Source: an uncultured Flavobacteriaceae bacterium
Lineage (GTDB): Bacteria > Bacteroidota > Bacteroidia > Flavobacteriales > Flavobacteriaceae
Length of the DNA: 64,000 nucleotides
Direction of reading: 5' to 3'
Assembly: GCA_947493535.1 (NCBI GenBank)
Contig: CANLRK010000002.1
Coordinates: 310,001-374,000 of the forward strand
Position numbers and translations under genes: made by a program. The notes beneath the pieces are model-generated. The model worked only from the letters and a program-made list of their open reading frames with translations, was not told where the DNA came from and ran no database searches. This document shows, piece by piece, positions 30,040 through 53,862 of the stretch; positions within the stretch are counted from its first letter, which is position 1; each line of letters starts with the position of its first letter.

Positions 30040-30129
30040 TTAAATAATTAAATGAGACTGAGTATAAATAATATAGGCAATGTAATAATCAACAGATACT
30101 TTAGTTATCTTTATAGTAACAAAATCTTC

Positions 30130-30573
30130 ATGATTATGAAAATAAAGCAACTTGCTCCAATTGTGTTTTTCTTTTTTGGAACATTATTCCTTTCTGCGCA
30201 ACAAAACACCAAAACTTTTAAAGAAGCCTTATTAACAGCAAAAGAAACAAATAAAAAAGTACTGTTGGTTTTTGCGGGTTCTGATTGGTGTGCCCCATGC
30301 ATGAAACTTGAAAAAAATATATTGCATACACCAGAATTTAAAGATTTAGCAGACGAAAAATTTGTATTGTATAAGGCAGATTTTCCAATGCGAAAGAAAA
30401 ACAAATTACCAGAAAGTAAACAAAAAGAAAATGGCGCTTTAGCTGAAAAGTACAAACAAAATGGTATTTTTCCTTTGGTAGTTGTACTCACTAATGAAGG
30501 AAAAGAATTAGGGCGTATGTCATATAAAAACATAGCTCCTGTAACTTATTTTAATAAGCTTGCTTCATTTTAA
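30130..30573 (+). CDS. Exported thioredoxin-like protein (CAPC) of the ApbE cassette
   Basis: This 147-residue exported thioredoxin has a signal peptide (to about residue 23, ending SAQ). The active site is FAGSDWCAPCMKL (Cys54, Cys57) and the cis-proline is in NGIFPLVVVLTN. It resembles the thioredoxin at 17838. An upstream in-frame ATG at 30052 would add 26 non-signal residues, so the start is placed at 30130 (or 30136). It is followed after four bases by apbE, then DUF4266 and DUF3570 genes, which suggests service to that system, for example reducing the Cys-rich tail of the DUF4266 protein. That role is inference. Confidence 0.88.
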   Translation: MIMKIKQLAPIVFFFFGTLFLSAQQNTKTFKEALLTAKETNKKVLLVFAGSDWCAPCMKLEKNILHTPEFKDLADEKFVLYKADFPMRKKNKLPESKQKENGALAEKYKQNGIFPLVVVLTNEGKELGRMSYKNIAPVTYFNKLASF

Positions 30574-30577
30574 TCTT

Positions 30578-31567
30578 ATGAGAAATCACTTTTTTACCAC
30601 AATTTTAGTGTTGTTTATAGTAACAAGTTATGGGCAACAACATTATAGTAAATCTGTGTTGTTAATGGGAAGTGATTTTAAGATAACTGTTGTAGCAAAT
30701 TCTAAACAAGAAGGAGAAAAATACATTAATCTTGCTATTGCTGAAATTGAGCGAATTGAGCAATTAATTTCCTCTTGGGACCCTAATTCTCAAACGAGTT
30801 TAATAAATAAAAACGCTGGAATTAATCCTGTAGTGGTTAATCAAGAATTATTTGATTTAATTCAGCGATCAAAAAAACTATCAGAACTTACTGGAGGTGC
30901 CTTTGATGTATCTTTTGCTTCCATGGATAAAATATGGAAGTTTGATGGAAGTGTAACTACCATGCCCCCAGCAAATGAAGTTAAGGCTTCGGTTGAAAAG
31001 GTAGGGCATGATAATATTGTAATGAACCCGGAAGCTACTACCGTTTTTCTAAGAAAAAAAGGTATGAAAATAGGCTTTGGTGCTATAGGGAAAGGGTATG
31101 CTGCAGATAAGGCAAAAGAATTACTAATTGCAAAGGGAGTAACAGCAGGAATTATTAACGCATCTGGCGATTTAACCACTTGGGGTAACAAACCAGATGG
31201 TAAACCTTGGGTTGTAGGAATTAAAAACCCATTAAACAAAAACAAAGTATTTGCCTGGTTTCCTGTTGATAATAGAGCCATTGTAACTTCAGGTAATTAT
31301 GAAAAATATGTTGTTATAAATGGCACACGCTATACGCATATAATAAACCCTAAAACAGGTTATCCATCACAAGGGGTTATAAGTGCGTCTGTATTTGCTC
31401 CTAAAGCTGAGCTAGCTGATGCGTTAGCAACATCAATTTTTGTTTTGGGCATAGAAAGAGGGCTATATTTTATAAACCAATTGAATGGTGTTGATTGTGT
31501 TATAGTTACAGACACTGGAAAAATTCATTATTCAAATAATATACAAAATGAAATTCAAGAAAATTAA
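30578..31567 (+). CDS. apbE: FAD:protein FMN transferase ApbE
   Basis: This 329-residue exported enzyme transfers FMN from FAD to a Thr or Ser of target proteins outside the cytoplasm. It has a signal peptide (ending YGQ). Family motifs are LLMGSDFKITVV, IGFGAIGKGYAADKAKELL, the GDLTTWG strand and ADALATSIFVLG near the end, with its Mg-binding Asp-Ala pair. It lies between the thioredoxin and the DUF4266 gene, overlapping the latter by 20 bases. No flavin acceptor motif is visible in this operon; a good acceptor lies in the FMN-binding protein at 50515-51051. Confidence 0.95.
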   Translation: MRNHFFTTILVLFIVTSYGQQHYSKSVLLMGSDFKITVVANSKQEGEKYINLAIAEIERIEQLISSWDPNSQTSLINKNAGINPVVVNQELFDLIQRSKKLSELTGGAFDVSFASMDKIWKFDGSVTTMPPANEVKASVEKVGHDNIVMNPEATTVFLRKKGMKIGFGAIGKGYAADKAKELLIAKGVTAGIINASGDLTTWGNKPDGKPWVVGIKNPLNKNKVFAWFPVDNRAIVTSGNYEKYVVINGTRYTHIINPKTGYPSQGVISASVFAPKAELADALATSIFVLGIERGLYFINQLNGVDCVIVTDTGKIHYSNNIQNEIQEN

Positions 31568-31775
31568 CTATAAACATATACTAGTTCTATTTTTTACAGT
31601 AATACTCAGTTCATGCGTAACCGTAAAAGAATATGAGAAAGTATATGTAAATGATGCTGATATGGAATTATCAGCTTATAAAATAAATAAATTTGAAACA
31701 AGCTTTCAGGTATATCGCGAGGCAGCCTCTGGTGCCAATGGTGGTAAAGCTGGAGGAGGTTGCGGTTGTAATTAA
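31548..31775 (+). CDS. Small DUF4266-type lipoprotein with Cys-rich tail
   Basis: This 75-residue lipoprotein has lipobox LSSC (Cys23), a short conserved middle (KEYEKVYVNDADMELSAYKI) and a glycine-rich tail ending GGKAGGGCGCN. I recognise the DUF4266 family, which is found with DUF3570 and ApbE in several phyla; its function is unknown. The two tail cysteines could bind a metal or form a thioredoxin-controlled disulfide. The gene overlaps apbE by 20 bases and precedes the DUF3570 gene by four bases, so translation is coupled. Confidence 0.9.
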   Translation: MKFKKINYKHILVLFFTVILSSCVTVKEYEKVYVNDADMELSAYKINKFETSFQVYREAASGANGGKAGGGCGCN

Positions 31776-31779
31776 AAAT

Positions 31780-33051
31780 ATGATGCAAAAACAAATTGTA
31801 ACAAACATTATGTTGCTTTTATCAATAATGGTAATGGCTCAAGAAAAAACTACCGACACTATTTTTAAAAAAAGAGTGTTAGAAAAGGCTGAAGTTGATT
31901 TTTTGATGAGTTATTATACTCAAGACGGAAATCATGCGGCTGTAACTGGAGGAAAAGGGACAGAAGAGTTAACAGATATCACTCCAACTTTTATTGTAGC
32001 CATACCTTTAAATGATGATGATGTTTTAACTGCTGATGTTGGTATTTCGGCATATACTTCAGCATCATCAAGTAATATTAACCCTTTTGATGGTAACCAA
32101 ACAGCAAGTCCCTGGATAGAATCATCAGGTGCTTCGGGTGCAGATGTGTGGATGAATGGTAATTTTGATTACAGCCTTTCTTCAGATGATAGAAACACAA
32201 TATGGGGAGCAAATTTAAGTATAGCTTCTGAGTATGATTATTTTTCTTTTGGTTTTGGCGGACACATAGCTAAGTTGTTTAATGAAAAGAATACAGAAGT
32301 TTCTTTAAAGCTTAATGCTTATATTGATACATGGAACCCACAATATCCTATAGAACTTCGTGCGGGTTTTACAGCTCCTGCAGGTTATACTTCATCATAT
32401 ACTGAATTTGATAAGCTAGGTAGAAATACATATTCTTTATCAGCGGCAATTTCACAAATACTTACTAAAAAATTACAGGGATCTTTATTTTTTGATGTAG
32501 TACAGCAAAAAGGATTATTGTCAGCCCCACATCAAAGGGTATACTTCTCTGATGTTACGGATTATTTTATTGAAGACTTTCATCTAGCAGATGATGTAGA
32601 GCGTTTACCAGATTCTCGTTTTAAACTACCTATTGGAGTACGGTTAAACTACTTTATTAATGAATATGTTACGCTACGTTCTTATTATCGTTTGTATACG
32701 GATAATTGGGGGATTTCTTCTAATACTGTTGAGCTTGAATTACCAGTTAAAATAACCCGATCTTTTACAGCGTTTCCCTCTTTTAGGTATTATACACAAA
32801 CACAAGCAGACTATTTTGCTTCATACAACCTACACTTGTCTACTTCGGAATATTATACGTCAGACTATGATTTATCAAAATTTAATAGTACACAACTTGG
32901 TTTTGGTTTACGTTATACGGATGTTTTTACAAAATTGAAGTTATATAAATTTGGCTTAAAATCTGTAAATGTAAAGTATAGCAATTATAACAGAACAGAT
33001 GGTTTAGATGCTAATATAGTATCGGCCGCGTTTAAGTTTGTTTTTGACTAA
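31780..33051 (+). CDS. DUF3570 outer-membrane beta-barrel protein
   Basis: This 423-residue exported protein has a signal peptide (to about residue 19, ending MAQ). Alternating amphipathic strands end in a phenylalanine-containing C-terminus (SAAFKFVFD), as expected of an outer-membrane barrel. Cues for DUF3570 are DFLMSYYTQDGNHAAVTGG near the start of the mature protein and the SSNINPFDGN loop. The start is placed at 31780 because a longer in-frame opening overlaps the DUF4266 gene. It completes a four-gene unit with thioredoxin, apbE and DUF4266; what it transports or displays is unknown. Confidence 0.9.
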   Translation: MMQKQIVTNIMLLLSIMVMAQEKTTDTIFKKRVLEKAEVDFLMSYYTQDGNHAAVTGGKGTEELTDITPTFIVAIPLNDDDVLTADVGISAYTSASSSNINPFDGNQTASPWIESSGASGADVWMNGNFDYSLSSDDRNTIWGANLSIASEYDYFSFGFGGHIAKLFNEKNTEVSLKLNAYIDTWNPQYPIELRAGFTAPAGYTSSYTEFDKLGRNTYSLSAAISQILTKKLQGSLFFDVVQQKGLLSAPHQRVYFSDVTDYFIEDFHLADDVERLPDSRFKLPIGVRLNYFINEYVTLRSYYRLYTDNWGISSNTVELELPVKITRSFTAFPSFRYYTQTQADYFASYNLHLSTSEYYTSDYDLSKFNSTQLGFGLRYTDVFTKLKLYKFGLKSVNVKYSNYNRTDGLDANIVSAAFKFVFD

Positions 33052-49252: not shown

Positions 49253-50413
49253 ATGAAAAAAATAGCAATAATTTGTGTGTTTACCATGTCAATGTTAGGG
49301 TTTTCACAAACACCAACTGACAGTACAAATGTAGGTCAATTTCAACAAAATAGCGCGCAACGTATTTTAAGTAACACTATAGATAAAGGAATAACAATAG
49401 GAGGTTATGGTCAGATTGACTACAATCAATTAGATGGTGAGAATGGTAAAAATGGAAACCTTGATATACATAGAATGGTGTTATTGTTTGGATATAAATT
49501 TAATGACAAAGTTCAGTTTGTTACAGAAATTGAAATGGAACATGTTAAAGAAATTTATGTAGAGCAAGCTTTTTTAACATATAACTTAAGTGATAATGTT
49601 AACTTAAGAGGAGGGTTAATGTTAGTACCTATGGGTTTAGTAAATGAATATCACGAACCTACAGTTTTTAATGGAGTTGAAAGACCAGGAGTAGATAAAA
49701 GTATTGTACCTACTACATGGAGAGAAATAGGTGTTGGAATTAATGGTAAGTTTGATAACTTATCACTAAAGTACCAAGCATATGTATTTAATGGGTTTAA
49801 ATCTGTTAATGGCACAAAGTTTTTAGGAGGGTCAAACGGATTAAGAAACGGACGCCAAAAAGGAGCGGAATCAATTATAAACTCTCCAACACTATCTGCT
49901 AAATTAGATTATTACGGGATAAAAGGATTACGTTTAGGAGCCTCTACGTATTTGGGTGATACTCAACCAGAGGATGATGTGGAAGATGTAAGAGGTGCAA
50001 AAGTAATGGTTAAGATGTTTGGTGCAGATGCACGTTATAGCTACAAAAAGTTTAGAGCGCGCGGACAATTTATTCATACATTTTTATCTGGTACTGAGGA
50101 GTATAATGCATTATATGCTTCAGATTTAGGATCAGAAATGAATGGTTGGTATGGTGAGTTAGCTTATAATTTATTACCATTAAGTAATAGCAAACAATTA
50201 TACGCATTTGCTCGTTATGAAGAGTTTGATACACAAGCAAATACAGAAGGTTTTATAGCAAATGATGCTTACGATAGAAATGTATTAACTACAGGGTTAT
50301 CATTTCATATTGCTCCTGGAGCTGTAGTAAAAGCAGATTATCAGTTTATCAACTCTAAAGTAGCTGATGATGCTACTGGAGGTTTAAATTTTGGCTTAGG
50401 GGTATGGTTCTAA
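49253..50413 (+). CDS. Outer-membrane porin, phosphate-selective porin O/P-like
   Basis: This 386-residue protein has a signal peptide (1-19, ending FSQ) and about sixteen alternating amphipathic strands ending FGLGVWF, the barrel-closing aromatic. The segments GYGQIDYNQ, VQFVTEIEMEHVKEIYVEQAF and LRGGLMLVPMGLVNEYHEP are typical of the porin O/P group. It should pass small solutes across the outer membrane. Its own promoter (49202) and terminator (50423-50463) make it a separate unit, but it stands directly before the FMN-binding/Feo operon and could supply its substrate. Confidence 0.9.
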   Translation: MKKIAIICVFTMSMLGFSQTPTDSTNVGQFQQNSAQRILSNTIDKGITIGGYGQIDYNQLDGENGKNGNLDIHRMVLLFGYKFNDKVQFVTEIEMEHVKEIYVEQAFLTYNLSDNVNLRGGLMLVPMGLVNEYHEPTVFNGVERPGVDKSIVPTTWREIGVGINGKFDNLSLKYQAYVFNGFKSVNGTKFLGGSNGLRNGRQKGAESIINSPTLSAKLDYYGIKGLRLGASTYLGDTQPEDDVEDVRGAKVMVKMFGADARYSYKKFRARGQFIHTFLSGTEEYNALYASDLGSEMNGWYGELAYNLLPLSNSKQLYAFARYEEFDTQANTEGFIANDAYDRNVLTTGLSFHIAPGAVVKADYQFINSKVADDATGGLNFGLGVWF

Positions 50414-50422
50414 ACTTTTAAG

Positions 50423-50463
50423 TAATACGTCTATTAGTTTTTTTAAAATTAATAGACGTATTA
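50423..50463 (+). terminator. Terminator after the porin gene
   Basis: A 14-base stem (50423-50436 with 50450-50463) closes a 13-base loop, and a T-rich stretch follows. It isolates the porin from the downstream operon. Confidence 0.75.
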
Positions 50464-50514
50464 TTTTTAATAAATCTAAATAGTTGTTATTTTCGCGTAG
50501 CAATTATTTATGAA

Positions 50515-51051
50515 ATGTATATGAAGTACTTTAAAATAATTTTATTTACAACTTTACTACTTGTATTAGGCTCTTTTGGTTTGCCAAAAAACATTTATAA
50601 AAAAGTAAATAAGGAAATTACAGCAGTTTTTGAAATTACTGATTTTTCTACAAAAATGATTACCATATCTGATGCTGTAAATACAACATTACCTACAAAA
50701 ATTAGCGAAAATAATTTATTTAAAATTATTAAAAACGATAGTATTTATGGTTATTTCTATGTAGGAAAAGCGCCTAGTAAAACTGATGAGTTTGATTTTT
50801 TAGTACTGTTTGATGCTGAATTAAATGTGCGTAAAGCAAAAGTTTTGATTTATCGTGAAGATTATGGAAATGAAATTGGAAGTAAACGTTGGTTAAAACA
50901 ATTTATAGGTAAAACGTCTTCGGATAATTTAAAATATGGCGAAAATGTAGATGCTATTTCAGGAGCAACAATTTCGGCAAATTCAATGACTGTTGCGATG
51001 AATAACTTATTGCGCAGCATAAGCCAATTAAAACAGCAAAACGTATTATAA
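50515..51051 (+). CDS. Exported FMN-binding domain protein
   Basis: This 178-residue protein (or 176 from an ATG at 50521) has a signal peptide (about 1-22). It has an FMN_bind domain of the NqrC/RnfG type, with the attachment motif DAISGATISANSM (146-158). In that family ApbE links FMN to the motif Thr, here Thr152. The preceding IGKTSSDNLKYGENV also fits. It should carry electrons outside the cytoplasm. Its stop overlaps the next gene start by one base, and FeoA and FeoB follow, so ferric reduction for ferrous uptake is the natural inference. TATTTTCG at 50488-50495 may be its -7 element. Confidence 0.9.
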   Translation: MYMKYFKIILFTTLLLVLGSFGLPKNIYKKVNKEITAVFEITDFSTKMITISDAVNTTLPTKISENNLFKIIKNDSIYGYFYVGKAPSKTDEFDFLVLFDAELNVRKAKVLIYREDYGNEIGSKRWLKQFIGKTSSDNLKYGENVDAISGATISANSMTVAMNNLLRSISQLKQQNVL

Positions 51052-51539
51052 TGCAAGTACAAAGTATGCATACTTGGACTAAAGAATTGAAGATGCTTAC
51101 AGGTGTTTTTTTACTTGTTTTAAGTGTAGGTTTTTTTTCAGGATTGACTTTTGTTGGGGAAACTTCACGTTTTTCATCAAACGGTATAGAAGAAAACTAC
51201 TTAGGAAATGAAGCTAATGAAGATGCTGAAGTAATGAAATTTAAAAAATCAGAACGCCATATGTTATCTGTAGTACACTCACATATACTATCTATGAGTG
51301 TATTATTCTTTATAGTAGCATTATTGCTATATCAAGTAGATTTTAATATTGTTGCCAAAAAAGTATTAATGGTTGAACCACTATTATCTGTACTTACTAC
51401 TTTTGGAGGAATTTATTTTTTATGGAAAGGTGTTTTATGGATGAAGTATGTAGTTATGATTTCTGGTGTTTGTATGACAATTTCTTACACCGTATCAGTA
51501 CTATTGATTTTTTGGAGTTTGTTTAAAAAGAAAAATTAA
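51051..51539 (+). CDS. Four-helix membrane protein of the FMN-binding/Feo operon
   Basis: This 162-residue protein has helices at about 15-33, 78-94, 104-125 and 132-157, and a polar loop (34-70) after the first. Three His lie at the start of helix 2 (His70, His76, His78 in RHMLSVVHSHIL), which could hold haem or metal. I do not recognise a named family. The start at 51051 overlaps the FMN-binding gene stop (TAATG), and feoA follows after three bases. It may pass electrons from quinol or cytoplasm to the flavin protein; that is inference. Confidence 0.85.
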   Translation: MQVQSMHTWTKELKMLTGVFLLVLSVGFFSGLTFVGETSRFSSNGIEENYLGNEANEDAEVMKFKKSERHMLSVVHSHILSMSVLFFIVALLLYQVDFNIVAKKVLMVEPLLSVLTTFGGIYFLWKGVLWMKYVVMISGVCMTISYTVSVLLIFWSLFKKKN

Positions 51540-51542
51540 ACC

Positions 51543-51764
51543 ATGACCGTTTCAGATTTAGTTAAAGGAGATAAAGCTATTATAACAAATTTTAATGTAA
51601 ACGAAATACCATTAAAGTTGATAGAAATGGGTTGTATTGAAGGAAATTTTGTTGAATTGGTTCAAGAGACACCACTAAAAGATCCTTTATACTTAAATAT
51701 TAATGGAACCTTTTTAGCCATTAGAAAAGAAACTGCTTCACAAATTTTAGTAGAAAAATTATGA
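51543..51764 (+). CDS. feoA: Ferrous iron transport protein FeoA
   Basis: This 73-residue SH3-like protein has VKGDKAIITNFNVNEIPLKL, then LIEMGCIEGNFVELVQETP and a terminal LAIRKETASQILVEKL, all standard for FeoA. It is a cytoplasmic partner that supports FeoB. It overlaps feoB by four bases (ATGA) and lies three bases after the four-helix protein gene. Confidence 0.95.
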   Translation: MTVSDLVKGDKAIITNFNVNEIPLKLIEMGCIEGNFVELVQETPLKDPLYLNINGTFLAIRKETASQILVEKL

Positions 51765-53728
51765 ATGAACTACTAAAAGTAGCCTTAATAGGAAATCCGA
51801 ACACAGGTAAAACAAGTTTGTTTAATAGTTTAACTGGGTTGAACCAAAAAGTAGGAAATTACCCAGGCATAACTGTTGATAAAAAGACGGGTAAATGTAA
51901 ATTAGATGCGAATACTACCGCTAAAATTATCGATTTGCCAGGCACTTATAGCCTTAATGCAAGTTCAGAAGACGAAAACATAGCTGTTAATGTATTAACT
52001 AATTGGACCAATACATATTACCCTGACGTTGTTGTAGTGGTAGCTGATGTAGAAAACTTAAAGCGAAACTTACTAATCTTTACACAAGTTAAAGATTTAG
52101 GTCTTCCAACAATTTTAGCAATAAATATGGAAGATCTAATTTCTGCTAAAGGCATAACAATAAATATTGCCGAACTAGAAGCAGAATTGCATACTAAAAT
52201 AGTTTTAGTTAGTTCAAAAAAAGGTACTGGAATACAGCAATTAAAATCTACGTTACTTAACTATAAAAGTTTATCAACTCAACAATGTGCTATTGGTAGC
52301 ACTAGTATTTTGAGTACTAAAGAGCTTAACGAGAAACAGCAAAAACATAAAGATACCGTACGTCGGTACCAATTTATAAATGCATTATTGACACAGCATT
52401 ATACTGTAAAAAAGACAAGGTCTGAAGGTTTTAGAGCTAAACTTGATGCTATTGTAACACATAAAGTAATGGGCTACATTATTTTTTTTAGTATACTATT
52501 TGCTATTTTTCAAGCCTTATTCACTTGGTCAGAATATCCTATGGATATGATTGATAATGCTTTTGCTTTTTTAAGTGAGTGGATTAATAATACATTACCA
52601 GAAGGAGCTTTTACTCGTTTGTTATCTGAAGGTATTATACCAGGTATAGGAGGGATAGTAATATTTATACCTCAAATAGCTTTTTTATTTTTATTCTTAT
52701 CTGTTTTAGAGGAAAGTGGTTACATGAGTAGGGTGGTTTTTTTAATGGATAAAGTAATGCGTAAATTTGGATTGAGTGGTAAAAGCGTGGTGCCTTTAAT
52801 TTCTGGTACAGCCTGTGCGATACCAGCAATTATGGCGGCTAGAAACATTGAAAATTGGAAGGAGCGCTTAATTACCATCTTAGTAACACCATTTACTACC
52901 TGTTCGGCACGTTTACCTGTTTATGCAATTATTATAAGTTTAGTTATTCCTAAAGGAAATACTTTTTTAGGCTTAAATAATCATGCTTTAGTATTGATGG
53001 CTTTATATCTGTTAGGTTTTCTTACAGCAATAGTAGCGGCTTATATTTTAAACAAAGTTTTAAAGCTAAAGTCTAAATCGTATTTTGTAATAGAAATGCC
53101 CAATTACAAATTACCATTACTTAGAAATGTTTTTTATACAGTATTAGATAAAACAAAGGCTTTTGTTTTTGGCGCAGGTAAAATAATATTAGCTGTATCT
53201 ATTTTATTGTGGGTTTTAGCTTCATACGGACCTGGTGATAGTTTTGCAAATGCAGAAGAGATTGTGAGTTCAAGCCATACTAATTTAGATGCAGAAACCC
53301 TTGATGCAAAAATAACTGCATATAAATTGGAAAATTCCTATATAGGAACATTCGGAAAGTTTATAGAACCAACAATAAAACCTTTAGGTTATGATTGGAA
53401 AATTGGTATTGCTTTGTTAACTTCTTTCGCTGCTAGAGAGGTTTTTGTAGGAACTTTAGCTACAATTTATAGTGTAGGAGCAGAAGATGAGGCGACATTA
53501 AAAGAAAAGATGAAAAAGGAGATAAATAAGGATACTTTACAACCTGTATTTAATTTTCCAACAGGAATATCGTTATTATTATTTTATGCTTATGCAATGC
53601 AGTGTATGAGCACCGTAGCTATAGTAAAAAAAGAAACTAACGGGTGGAAATGGCCATTGGTTCAAATGTTTGGAATGACAATTTTTGCGTATCTTGTAGC
53701 TTTAGTAACGTATCAAATATTACATTGA
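51761..53728 (+). CDS. feoB: Ferrous iron transporter FeoB
   Basis: This 655-residue iron permease has an N-terminal G domain: G1 GNPNTGKTSLFN, G2 VGNYPGITVDKKTG, G3 DLPGTYSLNA and G4 AINMEDL. Two gate regions have about eight helices, with GTACAIPAIMAARN and FTTCSARLPVYAIII carrying the conserved Cys, and FAAREVFVGTLATIYSVG. It moves Fe2+ inward. The length is slightly short, as in other Bacteroidota. It overlaps feoA by four bases and the next tiny gene by one. Confidence 0.97.
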   Translation: MNELLKVALIGNPNTGKTSLFNSLTGLNQKVGNYPGITVDKKTGKCKLDANTTAKIIDLPGTYSLNASSEDENIAVNVLTNWTNTYYPDVVVVVADVENLKRNLLIFTQVKDLGLPTILAINMEDLISAKGITINIAELEAELHTKIVLVSSKKGTGIQQLKSTLLNYKSLSTQQCAIGSTSILSTKELNEKQQKHKDTVRRYQFINALLTQHYTVKKTRSEGFRAKLDAIVTHKVMGYIIFFSILFAIFQALFTWSEYPMDMIDNAFAFLSEWINNTLPEGAFTRLLSEGIIPGIGGIVIFIPQIAFLFLFLSVLEESGYMSRVVFLMDKVMRKFGLSGKSVVPLISGTACAIPAIMAARNIENWKERLITILVTPFTTCSARLPVYAIIISLVIPKGNTFLGLNNHALVLMALYLLGFLTAIVAAYILNKVLKLKSKSYFVIEMPNYKLPLLRNVFYTVLDKTKAFVFGAGKIILAVSILLWVLASYGPGDSFANAEEIVSSSHTNLDAETLDAKITAYKLENSYIGTFGKFIEPTIKPLGYDWKIGIALLTSFAAREVFVGTLATIYSVGAEDEATLKEKMKKEINKDTLQPVFNFPTGISLLLFYAYAMQCMSTVAIVKKETNGWKWPLVQMFGMTIFAYLVALVTYQILH

Positions 53729-53862
53729 TGGAACTGTTTCAAAATATACTAGTGGCAATAGCTGTTGTGTTAGCAGTTGTTTTTTTGTTCCAGTTTTTTT
53801 TAAAACCAGCAAAAGCAACAAAAAAATCTTGTACTTCTTCTTCCAATTGTGGTTGTAAATAG
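53728..53862 (+). CDS. FeoB-associated Cys-rich small membrane protein
   Basis: This 44-residue protein has one helix (about 5-24), a basic turn (KPAKATKK) and a tail ending SCTSSSNCGCK with three cysteines. Such FeoB-associated Cys-rich membrane proteins (FeoC-like position, unrelated sequence) are known as a small family. The tail may bind iron or act as a redox sensor. The ATG at 53728-53730 overlaps the feoB stop by one base, so it is the last gene of the operon. Confidence 0.88.
   Translation: MELFQNILVAIAVVLAVVFLFQFFLKPAKATKKSCTSSSNCGCK

Follow-up and report, generated by a model that had tools for sequence, protein, structure and literature searches.

The Feo system takes only Fe2+, and we often know of no enzyme that makes this Fe2+ outside the cytoplasm. 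In Bradyrhizobium, according to the passages of PMC10760861 used here, the reductase for inorganic iron is still missing. Flavinylation-associated extracytosolic electron transfer has been described beside iron transporters, and iron reduction for uptake was proposed in the sections of that work on which we draw (Meheust 2021, PMC8238504). DUF4405 and FezC were added later to the flavin-linked membrane proteins, as passages of PMC11334425 report. Here, we analysed a stretch of 64,000 nucleotides (nt), called the window, from an uncultured Flavobacteriaceae bacterium (GCA_947493535.1, contig CANLRK010000002.1, positions 310,001-374,000, forward strand). In it, genes for a porin, an exported FMN_bind protein and a four-helix membrane protein (4TM) are followed by feoA, feoB and a gene for a small Cys-tail protein. 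Porin-FMN-4TM forms the conserved unit, to which Feo has been added as a partner. We think it likely that this unit is an envelope redox module for iron in Bacteroidota, flavinylated, periplasmic and working with exchangeable iron permeases. Gene order, conservation, protein families and the recurrent linkage to iron genes were observed in the loci described below. The features of the window locus are as follows.

49253-50413, plus strand: Porin_O_P-type outer membrane barrel of 386 amino acids (aa), PF07396 with 34.8 bits (cut-off 20.9), outside the FMN operon.

50422-50464, plus strand: intrinsic terminator in the gap between the porin and the FMN operon, a 20-pair stem followed by a T-run, with a fold z of -7.45.

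50515-51051, plus strand: exported FMN_bind protein of 178 aa with a single FMN domain, PF04205 with 32.3 bits (cut-off 22).

50959-50970, plus strand: SGAT codons (residues 149-152), by sequence motif the expected ApbE flavinylation site (Thr).

51051-51539, plus strand: 4TM, a membrane protein of 162 aa and of no described family, without a Pfam match at E up to 1.

51276-51284, plus strand: HxH (H76, H78) in transmembrane helix 2 (TM2), invariant and predicted from charge counts to lie near the periplasmic side.

51543-51764, plus strand: FeoA, PF04023 with 62.9 bits.

51761-53728, plus strand: FeoB with FeoB_N, Gate and FeoB_C, TIGR00437 above cut-off.

53728-53862, plus strand: small membrane protein of the FeoB-associated type with a Cys tail, 44 aa, PF12669 with 21.8 bits (below the cut-off of 27).

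30560-31567, plus strand: flavin transferase ApbE, a candidate for modifying the FMN protein, PF02424 with 281.7 bits (window 30665-31504).

A sequence-only reading had placed six genes (porin, FMN_bind, 4TM, FeoA, FeoB and Cys-tail) at these positions. All six open reading frames (ORFs) were confirmed, as were the junctions it described, namely TAATG, a 3-base gap, ATGA and a 1-base overlap. The last gene, read from the ATG at 53728, encodes 44 aa; the GTG ORF of the mechanical list is longer. The same reading had taken the porin and the operon together. The porin indeed adjoins the other genes and belongs to the conserved unit, but it stands behind a terminator: the gap of 101 bases holds the 20-pair hairpin and then T residues, and none of 200 shuffles folded equally well. 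Because this strong terminator separates the porin from the FMN gene, the operon proper comprises 50515-53862. A scan for sigma-70-type promoters gave fewer sites than were found in shuffles.

Of 98 related genomes searched, 28 contain 4TM (the window's own included), and in flanks of up to 1.5 kilobases (kb) FMN_bind adjoins 4TM at 28/28 loci. feoAB follows 4TM at two of the 28, the window and G003 of the same genus. The best 80 loci from 454 relatives with named genomes, whose titles are Flavobacteriaceae, Flavobacteriales and other Bacteroidota, are referred to as named loci. FMN_bind lies directly 5' of 4TM in 79 of these 80, the exception (L092) starting at a contig edge. The junction measures -4 to +4 bases in 76 of the 79; the wider gap in L093, L098 and L103 is perhaps a matter of start choice. 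An even draw over the phylum comprised 395 Bacteroidota genomes, of which 38 contain 4TM; 37 loci were counted, the window being left out, and FMN adjoins 4TM in 36 of them. As the two genes are adjacent in 79/80 named loci and 36/37 phylum loci, their grouping is not due to chance.

A porin on the same strand is found two genes 5' of 4TM in 74/80 named loci, and a porin stands beside the unit in 34/37 loci of the phylum draw. On the 3' side, the first gene after 4TM in the 79 named loci encodes IMPDH (28), a 234-aa protein not assigned to any family (18), ferritin (13) or FeoA (4), where neighbour labels were checked with Pfam on representatives. Since FMN_bind precedes 4TM in 79/80 loci and FeoA follows it in only 4/79, we define the unit as porin-FMN-4TM, without Feo.

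Around this unit, several further observations were made. DUF6607 takes the porin position in four named loci, and it substitutes for the porin in Mesonia, Ulvibacterium and G252. The group of 234-aa proteins (e.g., L076 8523-9227) has no Pfam match and is seemingly exported. A putative heme-uptake cluster with HmuY, a TonB receptor, DUF6607, an ankyrin protein, DUF2271 (TGAT motif) and a PepSY-flavodoxin protein lies beside or near the unit at L095 8586-16469 and L079 8618-16467, and in part at L035, L081, L097, L098, L054, L074 and L150. Terminator-like hairpins occur in 15/69 named porin-FMN gaps as compared with 7.2 expected from shuffles; on this weak signal, a conserved porin-FMN terminator was rejected.

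In other families, the link to iron is more pronounced, with iron genes of several kinds and orders next to the unit. On one strand, G347 (family code f53) carries fur, feoA, feoB, a 54-aa Cys-tail ORF without a Pfam match, porin, FMN_bind, 4TM and apbE. The order in G561 and G575 (f67) is fur-feoA-feoB-small Cys protein-porin-FMN-4TM-apbE, and five f29 genomes show feoA-feoB-porin-FMN-4TM-apbE, one of them with an extra ORF after the porin. Of the two f34 genomes, porin-FMN-4TM is preceded by fur, feoA and feoB in G622, and feoB lies at the contig end in G681. fur-FTR1 replaces fur-feoAB in G564 and G609 (f53) and in G503 and G536 (f51). In three f38 genomes, fbpA is located 5' of the porin; the FbpA-like protein of L158 matches solved ferric-binding proteins with an E of 9e-92. 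FUR, FeoA, FeoB, ApbE, FTR1 and the FtrD-like domain were confirmed by Pfam in the examples scanned, among them ten proteins from these feoAB- and FTR1-bearing genomes.

The sequence-only reading had proposed an envelope ferric reductase feeding FeoB and had considered that FMN_bind might stand next to feoAB only in this one genome. Such a restriction is excluded, because feoAB, FTR1, fbpA and fur adjoin the unit on the same strand in other families, mostly together with apbE. The neighbourhood survey thereby strengthens the iron role; given the FTR1 partners, the electrons may run in either direction.

For a quantitative view, Fur, FeoA, FeoB, FTR1 and FbpA were tallied on the same strand within 5 kb of the unit in 65 wide loci. 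The window itself was left out, as were L148 (G447) and L149 (G180), which have weak 4TM hits (E 7e-7 and 3e-4) and are within the 37-locus count. G158 and G595 are not among the loci taken in; L152 and L153 duplicate L280 and L281 in shorter form, each pair being counted once, and L031, L004 and L174 represent one contig. An iron gene of the five kinds is present in 18/65 loci from 6/15 family codes (Feo 10, FTR1 4, Fur 9, FbpA 3). Counting both strands, the 560 kb close to the unit contain 37 iron genes (36 on the unit's strand), versus 0 in 271 kb farther out. With an even spread, the chance of such a distribution is 4e-7, or 8e-4 when each positive locus is taken once. By its gene context, the iron involvement of the unit is well supported, and because it repeatedly adjoins iron-uptake genes, the unit probably moves electrons to iron outside the cytoplasm.

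Several points weigh against an iron module. At the other 47 of the 65 wide loci, none of the five kinds of iron gene lies on the unit's strand within 5 kb, and there are no positives in f1, f19, f27, f28, f31, f48, f49, f70 and f76 (9/15 codes). Of the 18 positives, 13 come from a draw (13/30) around the class of G347, a choice made once the linkage in G347 had appeared; the even phylum draw, with the window left out, gave only 5/35. The query proteins for the iron genes originated in these loci and in a few studied before them, and FeoB hits weaker than an E of 1e-30 were discarded as representing other GTPases. Comparisons by Pfam, PDB profile and hhalign detected no homology between 4TM and a known cytochrome.

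The 47 loci without such a neighbour would suit a general envelope electron-transfer chain, for instance one for the reduction of an organic substrate taken in through the porin, a chain which iron genes join occasionally through common flavin/iron co-regulation. The prevalence of IMPDH (28/79) and of the 234-aa protein (18/79) directly after 4TM would fit as well, and flavinylated proteins serve several kinds of reductases according to passages of PMC8238504. We nevertheless regard a general chain as unlikely. The neighbours which join the unit are iron genes of varied kinds and orders (feoAB after 4TM, feoAB before the porin, FTR1, fbpA, fur and ferritin), and among neighbours that are only partly identified, no recurrent substrate-specific enzyme was seen beyond the housekeeping neighbours of Flavobacteriaceae (HMG-CoA lyase-like, IMPDH and others).

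FTR1 is thought of as a ferroxidation-linked permease, and with such a partner the electrons could run the opposite way. The module would then draw electrons from periplasmic Fe2+ into the membrane pool and in this way aid permeation through FTR1, or else the detoxification and storage of iron. In L296 and L298, the fur and porin genes flank an FTR1 with a fused FtrD-like domain, and FTR1 is also present in L287 and L292. Ferritin, which speaks for an iron module and would also agree with a storage role, is near the unit in 22/80 named loci, at positions -3, +1, +2, +4 and +5; on the tree, its presence there changes at least 7 times. The genes for IMPDH and for an HMG-CoA lyase-like protein likewise remain near the unit, in 66 named loci each, so that part of the ferritin nearness may be vertical synteny, a further point against an iron function. 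FeoAB, which takes Fe2+, is the commoner partner (10 versus 4 of 65 loci) and is also that of the window, and we judge an oxidising direction improbable.

That feoAB and FMN-4TM are accidental neighbours without a joint function in the lineage of the window would accord with the 4/79 named loci of its family in which feoA follows 4TM and with unlinked FeoBs in the linked-FeoB group. It is already made unlikely, however, by the separate cases of f29, f34, f53 and f67, where feo stands upstream of the porin. Given also the overlapping junctions in the window and a second Flavobacteriaceae lineage in which the linkage persists (L046/L059/L061, followed by IMPDH), we hold an accidental pairing to be very improbable.

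Returning to the iron redox module, its FMN protein is a candidate for covalent flavin attachment. The FMN_bind domain of the window protein scores above the Pfam cut-off, and the protein resembles the C-terminal part of RnfG (TIGR01947 rnfG, 28.4 bits, under the cut-off of 102). A hydrophobic segment at its N-terminus was read by eye. A phmmer search against PDB sequences gave no useful match. We take the [S/T]GA[T/S]-type motif to be the ApbE flavinylation motif, and the SGAT of the window fits it. [SA]GAT is present in 79/79 named FMN proteins and GA[TS] in 29/29 further ones. A same-strand apbE adjoins the unit in 29/65 wide loci and often overlaps the 4TM gene or directly follows it. The window genome has two ApbE genes (PF02424 with 281.7 and 271.5 bits), one of them about 19 kb upstream within the window. 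Because the SGAT-type motif is conserved and ApbE recurs beside the unit, flavinylation of the FMN protein by ApbE is likely.

In the window, genes for a Trx-like protein, ApbE, DUF4266 and DUF3570 are consecutive on the plus strand (30052-33051), about 18 kb upstream of the locus described here. This set is a flavinylation system of a kind described in passages of PMC8238504, and in whole or in part it adjoins porin-FMN-4TM in L038, L047, L066, L071 and L091.

For the four-helix protein, the sequence-only reading had seen no recognised family, which agrees with the Pfam result for the window protein. It had also noted clustered His residues. H76 and H78 proved invariant in 135/135 distinct 4TM sequences, but position 70 is Glu in 116/135 and His in only 2. 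F86 and P110 are invariant too, E109 is kept in 133/135 and M142 in 123/135; HxH is also kept in 30/30 further loci. An AlphaFold model from 47 diverse sequences reached a predicted local distance difference test (pLDDT) of 94.1 and a predicted template modelling score (pTM) of 0.85, with long helices at 11-39, 68-94, 100-125 and 131-158. Judged by charge counts, the two termini are inside and loops 1 and 3 outside, which would place HxH some 8-10 residues into TM2 from its periplasmic end.

No convincing relative of 4TM was found in Pfam/NCBIfam scans of 47 members, a profile search against PDB sequences, Foldseek (best E 0.6 and 0.8 with two models) or VIA. The weak Pfam matches of the 47 members are scattered, the best being DUF5336 (4/47, E 1.6e-4) and Claudin_2 (5 members, E 0.006). 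DUF5336 and the other weak families were rejected as none passed the cut-offs in 10 rescanned members (L116: DUF5336 with 17.3 versus 28.6 bits), a set that left out the member with the DUF5336 E of 1.6e-4. PepSY, MsrQ, NapH, DsbD, NQR/RNF and DUF4405 are absent from the weak matches listed (25/34 families) for the 47 members. DUF2871 was reached weakly by 5/47 members (best E 0.012).

VIA aligned 4TM to the COX1 chain 6pw1_C (Z 7.6, 141 residues, root-mean-square deviation 4.6) amid a crowd of helical bundles, from which the COX1 rows stand slightly apart by identity (14-17% versus mostly <12%). hhalign comparisons of 4TM with DUF2871-like, NorB, 400-aa HTHSH and 30 COX1 sequences gave probabilities of at most 2%, the PepSY control giving 3%. 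Profile comparison did not confirm the faint similarity between 4TM and a single arc of cytochrome c oxidase subunit I, which is kept only as a lead. A compact membrane family (about 151 aa, motif SAHTH[IVL]I) that scores close to or below the cut-off of DUF2871 was seen at L202 1414-1869 and at similar loci up to L230, mostly in f31 and f49; it has the HxH helix in common with 4TM, and a profile similarity was undetectable. We offer only tentatively, and think it rather doubtful, that 4TM represents a membrane electron carrier of a new class. In this reading, a minimal protein of four helices with HxH, perhaps related through a single arc to heme-copper oxidase subunit I, would pass electrons from quinol to the flavinylated periplasmic protein; together with a dedicated porin, it would form an iron reductase found across the phylum, onto which Feo, FTR1 and Fbp permeases would have been plugged independently.

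For the iron redox module, we favour the following mechanism. The porin would admit iron species through the outer membrane, and ApbE would flavinylate the exported FMN_bind protein on the Thr of SGAT. In the inner membrane, 4TM would pass electrons, most likely from menaquinol, to the FMN protein, and its HxH perhaps holds a metal or heme. The FMN protein would carry the electrons in the periplasm and reduce iron species there. The reduced iron would then be taken up by the permease of the respective lineage, FeoAB in the window and FTR1 or an Fbp-type ABC system elsewhere.

In the window, both FeoA and FeoB domains of the Feo system were found by Pfam/NCBIfam scans. A FeoB_N search gave a single FeoB-scale match in the genome (183 bits; next GTPase 52 bits), so FMN-4TM is joined there to the sole feoAB. 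The four named loci in which FeoA directly follows 4TM are L031 (uncultured Kordia) and L046, L059 and L061 (uncultured Flavobacteriaceae), the latter three having all six genes in order and then IMPDH. In a FeoB tree that lacks L176, whose ORF was not picked up, the linked sequences cluster with two unlinked ones from the window's genus in a group of 7 (Shimodaira-Hasegawa-like approximate likelihood ratio test 93, below the starred level). As the linked FeoBs share one group, the feoAB-4TM arrangement, which is rare in Flavobacteriaceae, is likely of one origin there. FeoB occurs in 28/28 relatives with 4TM versus 54/70 without (Fisher p 0.005, a value not controlled for relatedness), and one of the 28 matches (G068) holds stop codons. 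Within family f1, the contrast is weaker (22/22 versus 32/37). In G002, of the same genus and without 4TM, feoAB stands after an ABC transporter ATPase gene and beside a convergent flavodoxin/NAD-binding reductase related to PepSY-flavodoxin proteins (L173 281-4951).

The last protein of the operon resembles FeoB_associated (PF12669), with which its place after FeoB and its Cys tail agree, although the score is under the cut-off. Similar Cys-tail proteins follow FeoB in L031, L046, L059, L061, L173 and L175. In f67 and at least one f29 genome, a small CxxC-pair protein (zinc ribbon-like) replaces the membrane Cys-tail protein after feoB (L295 7566-7751, L297 12071-12256, L310 6813-7058). Passages of PMC10434189 and PMC9478572 describe a FeoB-associated Cys-rich protein that responds to iron depletion or an iron regulator. 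Iron-limitation expression terms gave no results tied to the cassette genes in the portions of PMC5429918, PMC10434189 and PMC9478572 covered.

Taken as a compact and widespread unit, porin-FMN-4TM is a concrete candidate for extracytoplasmic Fe2+ production in Bacteroidota. 4TM adds a membrane family with an invariant motif and without a described family in the libraries used, and natural variants exchange the iron permease around the unit. In the full-text literature, with supplements and most subscription papers outside the scope, no paper was found on the porin-FMN-4TM unit or on FMN_bind with FeoB.

Among the described systems, SifE of Bifidobacterium breve is likewise an FMN_bind, membrane-linked predicted ferric reductase, and its cluster is induced by iron limitation; that system is Gram-positive with ABC permeases, and the passages of PMC5449479 mention neither 4TM nor porin. 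FsrB-FeoAB of Bradyrhizobium resembles the proposed route in that periplasmic ferric reduction precedes FeoAB uptake, as shown there genetically; by the passages of PMC10760861, however, FsrB is a siderophore reductase, and its gene number is far from that of feoB. The DUF4405 and FezC cytochromes are, like 4TM, helical membrane proteins beside flavin or iron genes. As far as passages of PMC11334425 go, DUF4405 has six helices and four central His, whereas 4TM has HxH in one helix, and the heme site of FezC is proposed to form by homodimerisation; DUF4405 was not seen among the matches listed for the 47 4TM members.

The systems of PMC8238504 come closest, sharing the FMN_bind protein, ApbE, colocalised iron transporters and the proposed iron reduction. 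Its P19-FTR1 clusters also combine an FTR1 permease with an FMN_bind gene; these are mostly Gram-positive in the parts consulted, whereas here porin, 4TM and Fur are present. Its passages name VIT1, P19 and FTR1, and the terms FeoB and porin are absent from the main text. The sequence-only reading had expected a new electron path. The idea of flavinylated iron reductases beside iron transporters is already published there; of the five membrane classes given in those passages (NapH-, MsrQ-, PepSY-, DsbD- and NQR/RNF-like), 4TM matches none by Pfam. The pairing of flavinylation and iron is thus known in kind, and the membrane component 4TM may be a new class.

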